The notes beneath the pieces were generated by a model. The model was not told the origin of the DNA and did not search any database. It was given only the letters and a program-made list of their open reading frames with translations. This document shows, piece by piece, positions 1-10,210 of a stretch of DNA of 24,004 bases. A program made the position numbers and the translations under genes. Origin of the DNA: a virus. The stretch is from IMG/VR virus record IMGVR_UViG_3300006735_000254, positions 1 through 24,004 of that record, one strand, 5' to 3'. Within the stretch, counting starts at the first letter, position 1; every line of letters begins with the position of its first letter.

Positions 1-329
1 ACTTCGGGGAAGAGTTGAGCGTTTGCTTGCTCGATATAATCTAGAAGCATTTGCGATACTTCCATTTGCTGTTCGTGCCACGTTCTGTTGTTGGCTAGTT
101 GAACCCAATCTGGTTCAGTTTGTGCGCCAGTTTCAGAATCGAATGTGTGACCCTGTTGTACAATCTCGTCAATCTCTTCAATCTTTGATAACTTTGTATT
201 GATTGACCAGTGAAGGTTGTTAATCATTCTACCAAATTCATAGTTTAGTTGGTTGTTTACTGTACGATTTGTCAGTACATGGTCACGCTGAATGTCAGCT
301 ACAAGGTTGTTGGTTACTTTCTTAGACAT
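1..329 (-). CDS. Leftward phage protein of unknown function (partial, C-terminus beyond left edge)
   Basis: An open frame on the minus strand runs from an ATG at 329-327 to the window edge without a stop. The protein starts MSKKVTNNLVADIQRD and continues for 109 codons. An AAGGAG ribosome-binding site lies about 7 bases upstream of the ATG, which fixes the start. The visible part is polar and mostly helical-looking (NRTVNNQLNYEFGRMINNLHW), with no membrane segment and no motif I recognise. It is the only gene in the window read leftward, so it probably begins the other transcription unit of the genome. Function unknown. Confidence rests on the clean start signal and the uninterrupted frame, not on homology. 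Confidence 0.75.
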   Translation of the reverse strand, partial: MSKKVTNNLVADIQRDHVLTNRTVNNQLNYEFGRMINNLHWSINTKLSKIEEIDEIVQQGHTFDSETGAQTEPDWVQLANNRTWHEQQMEVSQMLLDYIEQANAQLFPE

Positions 330-409
330 CTTATTCTCCTTATGGTGATGACAGGGACAGCCCCTGCCGATAACTCCCAAGGTCACGGCCACTGTGCTAT
401 GCCGACAAG

Positions 410-425
410 CCCCCTTGCGAGGGGG
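410..425 (+). repeat. Short GC hairpin (6-bp stem, TGCG loop)
   Basis: CCCCCT at 410-415 pairs with AGGGGG at 420-425 around a four-base loop. No T-run follows on either strand, so it is not a standard intrinsic terminator. It sits 8 bases before the 13-bp inverted repeat. Confidence 0.55.
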
Positions 426-433
426 TGCAGGAG

Positions 434-518
434 CATAAGTAAAGCCCAGCCACGGTAGACAGATATCAAACCAGATAGGCACAGTGTTTGCAGGGTGCGG
501 CCTGCGGCTTTACTTATG
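434..518. repeat. Perfect 13-bp inverted repeat with 59-base interior
   Basis: CATAAGTAAAGCC at 434-446 is the exact reverse complement of 506-518. The interior ends with a second hairpin, GCAGG 490-494 with CCTGC 501-505, stacked directly against the outer stem. A 13-bp perfect match within a 412-base region would arise by chance only about once in a thousand such regions by rough count. It may be the closing stem of a structured RNA or a long operator. No protein-coding frame uses it. Confidence 0.7.
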
Positions 519-673
519 ACAGGGGTTGCTGACCTGCTAGGAGTTTCGCGCAGGGGAAGTCGCTGTTAGACCCATTAGGAGATTGTCTAAGACAGTGACC
601 TACTACCTTCTGACAATCAGCTGACCATGCACTGACTAATCCTTTTAGATGTTCTTTAGATGTGAATTGTGAG

Positions 674-703
674 TTGACAAGCAGTTTTCAAATGAGCCAT
701 AAA
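674..703 (+). promoter_or_regulatory. Candidate sigma70-type promoter before the small terminase
   Basis: A perfect TTGACA at 674-679 is followed after 18 bases by CATAAA (698-703, four of six to TATAAT). It lies about 40 bases upstream of the small terminase ATG and faces the rightward operon. The -10 is imperfect, so this is a candidate only. Confidence 0.3.
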
Positions 704-741
704 AAGGGGGGAACACAAGGGGGGTTCATTCAGGTTGTGCA

Positions 742-1113
742 ATGACAGACATAGTTAAACTCACCGACAAACAAACTGCACTTGTGGATACGCTCGTAGC
801 AGAAGGATGTACCATCAAAGAGGCCGCGCACAAAGCAGGATATGCAGAGGGCGAAGCTGGAAGAGTGACAGCCAGTAAGGCTTTGCGCTTGCCTCACGTG
901 CAACAGTACATGATGCAGAGAGTGGGAGAGAGCCTCGGTCTTAACGCTACGACAGCCGCCGCCAAGTTGCTGAACTTAGCCAAAGGGGCTAAGTCCGAGT
1001 ATGTCCAGCTAGAAGCTAGCAAGGACATCCTCGATCGGGCTGGCTACAAGCCGCCCGACAAGCAACTGCATATGCACGCTGGGGAAATTAAGGTGAGTAT
1101 AGACCTCGGCTAA
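742..1113 (+). CDS. Terminase small subunit
   Basis: DNA-recognition subunit of the genome-packaging motor; it selects phage DNA and hands it to the large terminase. The 123-residue protein opens with LTDKQTALVDTLVAEG followed by a helix-turn-helix-like stretch (CTIKEAAHKAGY, about residues 23-34) and LRLPHVQQYM, the typical pattern of the Terminase_2/small-terminase family. Its middle is helical and suited to oligomerisation. Length fits the family. The ribosome-binding site is weak (AGG about 7 bases upstream), and the ATG is the only sensible start. Unusually, the large subunit does not follow directly: 2.4 kb of small genes lie between them. Family assignment is by pattern recognition and is fairly secure. 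Confidence 0.85.
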   Translation: MTDIVKLTDKQTALVDTLVAEGCTIKEAAHKAGYAEGEAGRVTASKALRLPHVQQYMMQRVGESLGLNATTAAAKLLNLAKGAKSEYVQLEASKDILDRAGYKPPDKQLHMHAGEIKVSIDLG

Positions 1114-9297: not shown

Positions 9298-9567
9298 ATG
9301 GCATATTCAGCATCTGGCCTAACCCTTATTGGTGGCTCATCAGCACAGCGTATGTGGATTTATACTAGCGCAGACACTATTGCTGATATTAATACTGAAG
9401 ACTACTTCCTGAAAGCAATTGGCATGATTAACAAAAATTATGTTATGTTTATTGTTTCTTCAACAGGCGGTACGCCAGCAGTATCAACTGCATATTGCAA
9501 TCAGTCTGATGGCACAAACATCGACATCGTAAACGGTGTTGCTGTTACTGCTACTGATAGCGATTAA
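9298..9567 (+). CDS. Small protein downstream of the capsid gene, possible head decoration protein
   Basis: An 89-residue, beta-rich, low-charge protein starting MAYSASGLTLIGGSSAQRMW, followed by IYTSADTIADINTEDYF. This GLxLIGG...RxWxYxxxDxxAxIxxxxYF pattern recurs in short proteins of many phages, usually next to capsid or tail genes. It has a strong AAGGAG ribosome-binding site 8 bases upstream, a sign of high expression like the capsid gene before it. No enzyme motif. Position, size and expression signal suggest a shell decoration or fibre-like protein, but this is inference. Confidence 0.7.
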   Translation: MAYSASGLTLIGGSSAQRMWIYTSADTIADINTEDYFLKAIGMINKNYVMFIVSSTGGTPAVSTAYCNQSDGTNIDIVNGVAVTATDSD

Positions 9568-9574
9568 AGGATTT

Positions 9575-9606
9575 GGGAGAGGCTAAGGTATCAACTTGCT
9601 TCTCCC
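9575..9606 (+). promoter_or_regulatory. Hairpin at the head-tail gene junction
   Basis: GGGAGAGGC (9575-9583) pairs with GCTTCTCCC (9598-9606), nine pairs including one G-T, around a 14-base loop. It sits between the capsid companion gene and tail tubular A, where T7 carries its late terminator. No T-run follows, so it is more likely a leaky attenuator, an RNA processing site or a stabiliser than a full terminator. Confidence 0.5.
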
Positions 9607-9616
9607 ATAACCTACA

Positions 9617-10210
9617 ATGGCAGTAAGTAGCACCCACGCAAATACACCGATTGATATCTGTTCCAGAGCATTAATTTTGATTGGGGCAAACACAATCACT
9701 TCGTTTGAAGACGGTACAACCGAGGCTCTTGTCTCGGTAAATATGTATGAGGACGTTGCTCGTACAGCATTGGTAAACTCACGCTGGCGTTTTGCAACCA
9801 ATCAAACAGAACTTAATTTACTTACAGCACCGCCCACTGGAAGATATGACAGAGCATATCAACTGCCATCAGACTATTTGATGACTCACGCGGCTACTGT
9901 AAATGATAATCTGATTGAATATCAGTTATATGGTGACAAGCTGTTTGCCAATACATCACCATTAGACAAAGTAATTCTAGACCACACATTCCGTGTAGAT
10001 GAAGTTTATTGGCCTTCTTACTTTACCATTGCTGTTGAGTATGCTTTGGCTACTGTCTTTTCAACATCAGTTGCTAGAGACACTGCATTAGCTGGTTTAA
10101 TGAACACACAAGCACAGCTAACAATGACTAAAGCTAGAACGTTAGATTCACAGCAACAGACAACTCGTAAGCTGGCAACATCGAGGTTTATTACGAATAG
10201 GCGTAGCTAA
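9617..10210 (+). CDS. Tail tubular protein A (T7 gp11-like gatekeeper)
   Basis: Forms the ring joining portal to nozzle. The 197-residue protein starts MAVSSTHANTPIDICSRALI, then LIGANTITSFEDGTTEALVS and YEDVARTALVNSRWRFATNQ, and contains RYDRAYQLPSDYL (about residues 75-87), the signature of the T7 gp11 family, whose usual length is close to 200. No Shine-Dalgarno is visible within 12 bases of the ATG; the nearest purine-rich stretch lies inside the hairpin loop 20-30 bases upstream. The end overlaps tail tubular B as TAATG. Confidence 0.92.
   Translation: MAVSSTHANTPIDICSRALILIGANTITSFEDGTTEALVSVNMYEDVARTALVNSRWRFATNQTELNLLTAPPTGRYDRAYQLPSDYLMTHAATVNDNLIEYQLYGDKLFANTSPLDKVILDHTFRVDEVYWPSYFTIAVEYALATVFSTSVARDTALAGLMNTQAQLTMTKARTLDSQQQTTRKLATSRFITNRRS

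Follow-up and report, generated by a model that had tools for sequence, protein, structure and literature searches.

We report a long quasi-palindromic hairpin (rod) directly upstream of the terminase small subunit gene (terS) in a 24,004-base virus fragment with podovirus-like genes, IMGVR_UViG_3300006735_000254; the whole stretch analysed is called the window. The element is real, widespread and conserved in structure. A functional folded element is strongly supported, because stability beyond that of shuffled sequence is combined with compensatory base changes among relatives. The best single reading is a structured plus-strand RNA at the early/late gene junction, a reading drawn from sequence comparison to which we give a probability of a little under one half (about 0.48). 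The labels 'early', 'late', 'podovirus' and 'marine' are used here as gene content and relatives suggest.

A long hairpin at a divergent gene junction

Besides terS, the window encodes a terminase large subunit, a portal-like connector, a major head protein, tail and internal virion proteins (features in Table 1). The leftward gene has no PHROG match, and GC content is 0.56 for 340-600 vs 0.42 for the window. Among isolates, the closest one found was the SAR11 phage Hodr (Pelagibacter phage EXVC031P Hodr), with 56% identity in terS and 63% in the connector. Its circular, 34-kb record has a leftward-type operon, holding replication and recombination genes, which points away from the terS operon at the corresponding position; elsewhere the two run towards each other, and this divergent junction is the only one in the record. 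The ten Hodr proteins scanned gave matches to anti-restriction, replication-initiation-like, RecE-like exonuclease, SSB and RusA proteins. GC skew in Hodr (L116) changes sign at the junction, at ~11-13 kb; an origin would give this pattern, and so would divergent genes alone.

Table 1. Features at the junction, in positions of the window
Feature	Position	Strand	Remarks
Whole long quasi-palindromic hairpin (rod)	~266-641	+	minimum-energy fold of 260-660
Conserved core (covariance model R1)	375-542	+	43 pairs
Side hairpin, 7 bp, loop TGCG	409-426 (409-415/420-426)	+	7/8 helix-2 pairs with double changes
Apical stem	434-518	+	13-bp perfect repeat 434-446/506-518, extended by 447-453 with 495-504
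Conserved internal-loop strand CAGCCACGG	447-455	+	no or hardly any variation among the ten sequences of alignments A1 and A2
Conserved internal-loop strand GCAGGGTGCGGCCTGC	490-505	+	alignments A1 and A2; pattern scan
Octamer ATTGTGAG (consensus TTTGTGCG)	666-673	+	directly before the -35 element; conserved in the G-tract clade
Sigma70-like terS-operon promoter	674-704	+	TTGACA 674-679, weak -10 CATAAA 698-703
Twin G tracts G6-AACACAA-G6, equal length	706-724	+	just after the terS promoter
Terminase small subunit (terS)	742-1113	+	phrog_2538, E 1.5e-14
Leftward gene, truncated by contig end	3-329	-	ORF; start within the rod's left arm

The rod consists of helices 266-298/610-641, 303-328/584-609, 335-345/572-582, 349-377/540-568, 380-395/519-535 and 434-456/494-518. 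An earlier note on this DNA had the element begin at 330, which is wrong: since the rod helices start at 266, the structure extends into the leftward gene, and its outer helices pair ~21 codons and the ribosome site of that gene (start 329) with the sequence preceding the terS promoter. In folds of L071, L027, L026 and L017, long pairing likewise reaches the start of the left gene. The perfect 13-bp inverted repeat described in the earlier note is present and forms the apical stem of this one long hairpin, in whose fold the 434/518 pair has a probability of 0.69. It is the only perfect 13-bp inverted repeat in the window with a spacer of at most 100, and none occurred in 20 mononucleotide shuffles of the window. 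The GC hairpin placed ahead of it also exists, as the side hairpin of Table 1. For two further claimed stem-loops, 533-554 and 563-595, the complementary ends are there, but the tested pairs had an ensemble probability of 0.00 each; these local hairpins were replaced by the 3' arm of the rod, whose bases pair with the left arm instead.

Three other candidates were discarded. A local hairpin GCAGG/CCTGC (490-494/501-505) in the initial RNAalifold drawing was given up in favour of a longer apical stem: in L017 the hairpin is disrupted, whereas the stem survives through a C-G to A-U change (A2 columns 78-136). A pseudoknot 390-397/479-486 is lost in L071 and others, judged by eye in A2, and was left uncounted. 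A universal ACGG...GNGCG internal-loop motif, under strict search, matched 3/56 loci on the plus strand, 0 on the minus strand and 34/1120 shuffles.

Folding stability in the window and in relatives

Folding on both strands against shuffled controls, which the earlier note had proposed as a check, revealed excess stability. For 340-640, the plus strand folds with -127.2 kcal/mol (z -5.2) and the minus strand with a z of -3.2, and 0/100 shuffles were as good on either strand. In a scan of 170 fixed 280-nt segments, none of which contains the whole rod, the rod region reached a z of only -2.97 and other places scored lower, so the folding excess requires the rod taken whole. The strongest segment of that scan, 9381-9660 (z -6.6), lies at the end of gene 9298-9567 and holds a GGGAGA/TCTCCC inverted repeat near 9576-9608, as seen by eye.

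Relatives were gathered with terS patterns, for which at least 598 of 600 matching viral stretches encode a relative, and 80 loci were taken; loci short of upstream sequence were excluded from both fold tests below. In the first set, 320 nt upstream was folded for 72 loci, with close copies kept and L002, the same virus as the window, included. Mean z was -4.64 on the plus strand (52/72 below -3) and -4.23 on the minus strand (49/72 below -3), and coding controls, run for this set only, gave a mean z of 0.22 with 0/38 below -3. The second set, from two further terS queries that returned some loci again, added 55 new distinct loci; 44 of these had z below -3, and about half of the 55 reached -8 or lower. 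Values not below -3 were obtained for 20/72 loci in the first set and 11/55 in the second, with essentially no folding excess in L061, L067 and L076 (first set) and in L215, L217 and L223 (second set). L018 had a z of 0.15, but here the core lies further upstream, where the covariance model detects it, and so outside the tested stretch. The Hodr upstream region folds into a long version, on the fold alone and without shuffle comparison. At least 20 expected pairs spanning more than 200 nt were present in 28/54 loci vs 20/54 shuffles; not every relative, then, has a single long rod. In MEP301, terS lies inside an operon with no preceding gap; other gaps were folded, without shuffle comparison.

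Covariation and spread of the element

The earlier note had also looked to covariation among relatives, and compensatory changes proved abundant. By blastn, only L002, L071, L027 and L026 align over more than 300 nt with the window's upstream region. The core alignment was made by sequence alone from sequences with the apical loop strands in common, namely the window plus nine relatives, i.e. 10 of 13 sequences after exclusion of L091, L093 and L094 as near copies. Double compensatory changes were found in 42 of 54 predicted pairs. In the hand-refined core structure, at least one occurs in 32 of 43 pairs, amounting to 78 cells, a count reached by 0/500 shuffles; the 13-bp apical stem has double changes in 11 of its 13 pairs. 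Paired cells make up 93.7% of the total vs 28-44% with partners slid 1-3 columns, a comparison in which the core structure is favoured since it was derived from the same ten sequences. With compensatory change and excess stability both present, the element is a conserved structured nucleic acid.

A covariance model of the core (R1) found it in 23/85 sources at E < 1e-7; ten of these built the model, and several are near copies. New finds beyond the model builders were L005, L022, L113/L114 and L080, and the left gene of L113/L114 is 39% identical to that of the window. In the remaining loci, the apices differ from the R1 core. A second group, found by pattern search, has its own conserved loop strands: 17/18 of its stretches carry a pair of G tracts downstream, and its stems change too, by eye only. 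Four matches to the loop pattern of the 490-505 strand that had neither G pair nor terS (L084, L085, L100 and L104) were excluded from the analysis. Nine aligned rods of the Hodr group appeared too divergent for pair counts. Among individual loci, L026 and L027 share outer arms and have different centres. The apical loop of L005 (2589-2789) and of L022 (516-720) holds an additional GC-rich hairpin, as though helices were swapped as modules, and in L018, L094 and L095 additional sequence separates the hairpin from the terS promoter or from terS.

Mismatch bias towards the plus strand

Composition aside, a palindrome in DNA would be expected to carry as many G.T as A.C mismatches, whereas a functional plus strand tolerates G.T. 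Both strands were folded without wobble pairs and the union was taken; mismatches were counted where three Watson-Crick pairs flank each side. Purging close copies reduced the sets used for strand and promoter analysis from 91 to 56 loci, and dropping the mis-sliced L004 and L057 left 54. In these 54 loci G.T outnumbered A.C by 49:11 (mononucleotide-shuffle null 0.58, p 2e-4), and in a second set of 55 further loci by 39:9 (null 0.59, p 0.0017). Loci with more G.T than A.C numbered 25 vs 3 for the reverse in the first set and 24 vs 5 in the second. The first-set ratio was 29:5 in the outer arms and 20:6 in the inner part, and selection for A-rich gene starts in the coding-overlapping outer arms could mimic the G.T excess in this set. 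For the second set, inner helices only gave 27:7 (p 0.015).

Other mismatch classes that an RNA should tolerate lent weak support in the first set and none in the second. In the first set, T.T exceeded A.A (p 0.045) and G.G exceeded C.C (p 0.033), the excess of A.G over C.T was not significant, and no other class leaned significantly to the plus strand in the second set. The energy difference between the strands is mostly composition, with p 0.04 beyond composition. As G.T outnumbers A.C inside stems in two sets, the plus strand is probably the one that folds. G.T is also tolerated in single-stranded DNA hairpins, so this test cannot separate RNA from single-stranded DNA.

Promoters, terminators and twin G tracts

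Scanning ~900 nt in 50 of the 54 distinct loci of the first set, every one selected for having a G pair, we found the terS promoter to be the only conserved promoter-like position, with a score above 7 in 86% of loci vs 20% for the next-best plus-strand bin. A strict consensus promoter scan of the window left this promoter out of its results. The octamer preceding it (consensus TTTGTGCG) is a possible regulator site. For the Hodr group, the best site of a 220-nt stretch at about the end of the rod closely resembles the sigma70 consensus, with a score of at least 14 in 12 of the 14 loci listed, out of 45. Neither the rod nor the leftward operon showed a conserved promoter in the G-pair loci or the Hodr group: plus-strand sites at the rod's 5' end had a frequency of 0.49 vs 0.42 in shuffles, and in the Hodr group they occurred in 11/23 vs 0.50 in shuffles, with minus-strand sites in 2/23. 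The window has no intrinsic terminator (GC stem with immediate T run) at the rod's 3' end, and its only plus-strand terminator candidate, 488-507, lies inside the rod. A search for T7-type RNA polymerase gave no match in 18 records, where controls were equally silent.

The twin G tracts follow the terS promoter. Their pattern had 2 overlapping matches in the window, both at 706-724, vs 0.03 expected. The 81 loci examined included 79 with a G pair, and the last pair before terS had tracts of equal length (5/5, 6/6, 7/7 or 8/8) in 77 of them and in 21/23 distinct forms; 0 of 100,000 permutations were as good, uncorrected for kinship. Counted from the first T of TTGAC, the tracts start 29-32 nt downstream in 76/77 loci, which places them over the likely start site. 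A G pair is present in 15/80 Hodr-query loci and 74/80 third-query loci. Distinct loci without it still fold with z < -3 in 35 of 45 cases, so the hairpin is independent of the G pair. PMC3905843 defines PHQS as at least two non-template-strand tracts of at least three G, separated by 1-7 nt; G6-AACACAA-G6 at 706-724 falls within this two-tract definition as a putative hybrid G-quadruplex motif. In bacterial genomes, 18 stretches with the G-tract motif had no terS match and, by eye, no such promoter, and were set aside as chance. A Bacteroidales contig (L121) has tandem G6-7-AACACAA-G6 copies 45 bases apart and no terS match.

Comparison with known elements

The earlier note saw no match to a tRNA, a tmRNA or a known riboswitch, and this held: no tRNA or tmRNA was found, and Rfam at gathering score gave 0 matches in the window and 0 in 15 related loci. 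At permissive scores, the window region (three matches) and 8 loci yielded only chance-like matches. In literature on pelagiphage RNA, Hodr, terS-linked structure and marine-phage RNA, with few subscription papers included, the hairpin is undescribed among the matches listed. GOLLD and ROOL have Rfam models. According to PMC12286853, they are large, structured, phage-borne RNAs of unknown function, often located close to tRNA islands, and many of the GOLLD RNAs are longer than 800 nt; being large, structured and phage-borne makes them the nearest kind to the present element. A glutamine riboswitch in another phage is treated in PMC9004378. Unlike GOLLD and ROOL, the hairpin here is rod-like, 300-400 nt long, located beside terS, overlapping a gene start and without an Rfam match.

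Three DNA elements also bear comparison. The ssoA-type single-strand origins of rolling-circle plasmids have a long imperfect hairpin with changing stems and conserved loops, act on one strand and contain no gene. The rod resembles them as a long imperfect hairpin with changing stems and conserved loop sequences, and differs in that no rolling-circle replication gene was found among the ten Hodr proteins scanned. The pac sites of the SPP1 and P22 type are double-stranded DNA signals, and the element shares with pac regions the position in noncoding DNA directly upstream of terS. Mitochondrial CSB II and hybrid G-quadruplex elements consist of a promoter followed by non-template G tracts, according to PMC5027508 and PMC3905843, and the same order is seen at terS. 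The tracts here differ from CSB II in overlapping the likely start site and in matching each other in length.

A proposed structured plus-strand RNA and its rivals

The earlier note had suggested a functional RNA or a complex control element. The functional fold is strongly supported; for an RNA, which is a proposal, no conserved plus-strand promoter was found, and the window has no terminator at the rod's 3' end. Under the preferred reading, the plus strand of the divergent junction would function as a single strand of ~300-400 nt that folds into a long hairpin built of modules, with a side hairpin and with conserved sequences in the apical internal loops; selection may act on its pairing and not on its sequence. 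Most likely it would be a structured noncoding RNA. As to transcription, start site and function, we infer that rightward transcription would begin within the 5' end of the leftward gene, which would make the RNA antisense to that gene's ribosome site; the RNA may end at the terS promoter or run into it. Its likely job would lie at the early/late switch, competing with or masking the start of the leftward mRNA during rightward late transcription.

The main and serious rival to this plus-strand RNA, although unlikely in our estimate, is a DNA element of a replication origin. On unwinding of the junction, the plus strand would form the hairpin, at which leftward synthesis would be loaded or primed, and the RNA primer would come from the strong rightward promoter, perhaps via an R-loop or hybrid G-quadruplex in the G-tract clade. 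Such an origin needs no promoter of its own. The lack of a conserved rod promoter is what weakens the RNA reading most, and it is also the strongest point in favour of the DNA one. The location is suitable too: the hairpin sits at Hodr's only divergent junction, where cumulative GC skew turns, although skew also simply tracks gene direction, and the plus strand would template leftward leading-strand synthesis. Hodr also has a protein with partial replication-initiation and repressor-like matches, together with the RecE-type exonuclease, SSB and RusA, and the twin G tracts at the transcription start fit the two-tract rule for hybrid G-quadruplexes (PMC3905843). Most Hodr-query loci, however, are without the G pair, yet the pair-less loci fold in the proportion given above, and conserved internal loops with side hairpins are more typical of RNA.

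Distinctly less probable is a minus-strand mRNA leader. An early leftward transcript would start right of the rod, the hairpin would hide the ribosome site and first codons, and translation of the leftward gene would wait for a trigger or RNase III. This accommodates the pairing of the ribosome site and ~21 codons by the window's outer helices, the similar folding of several relatives with different gene starts, and a minus strand far above shuffles (mean z -4.23 in the first set). The mismatch counts in both sets favour the plus strand, however, and no conserved minus-strand promoter was found right of the rod.

A two-part single-strand switch would combine several of these elements, and we regard it as a long shot. 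In this scheme the fast-evolving plus-strand hairpin would launch leftward replication, and the transcript of the back-to-back promoter would prime rightward replication, in one clade locked into a hybrid G-quadruplex by the matched G tracts. If true, a large group of marine phages would have an equivalent of the two mitochondrial origins.

Very improbable, finally, is a mutational by-product, in which template switching or conversion between inverted arms perfects quasi-palindromes and leaves compensatory changes without function: the arms are strikingly perfect despite fast sequence turnover, and L026 and L027 share outer arms and differ in their centres, but such a process predicts no strand bias and no conserved unpaired strands, both of which are observed, and leaves unexplained why both groups of relatives retain the element at one and the same position.

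Whichever of RNA or DNA it acts as, folding far above chance is seen in about three-quarters of the loci whose upstream sequence is long enough (52/72 with close copies included; 44/55 distinct). An element that keeps its pairing despite replaced sequence, overlaps a gene start and occupies the junction would represent a novel class of control or origin structure in phages. The isolate Hodr, whose host is Pelagibacter HTCC1062, carries a version of it, which makes the element open to testing.
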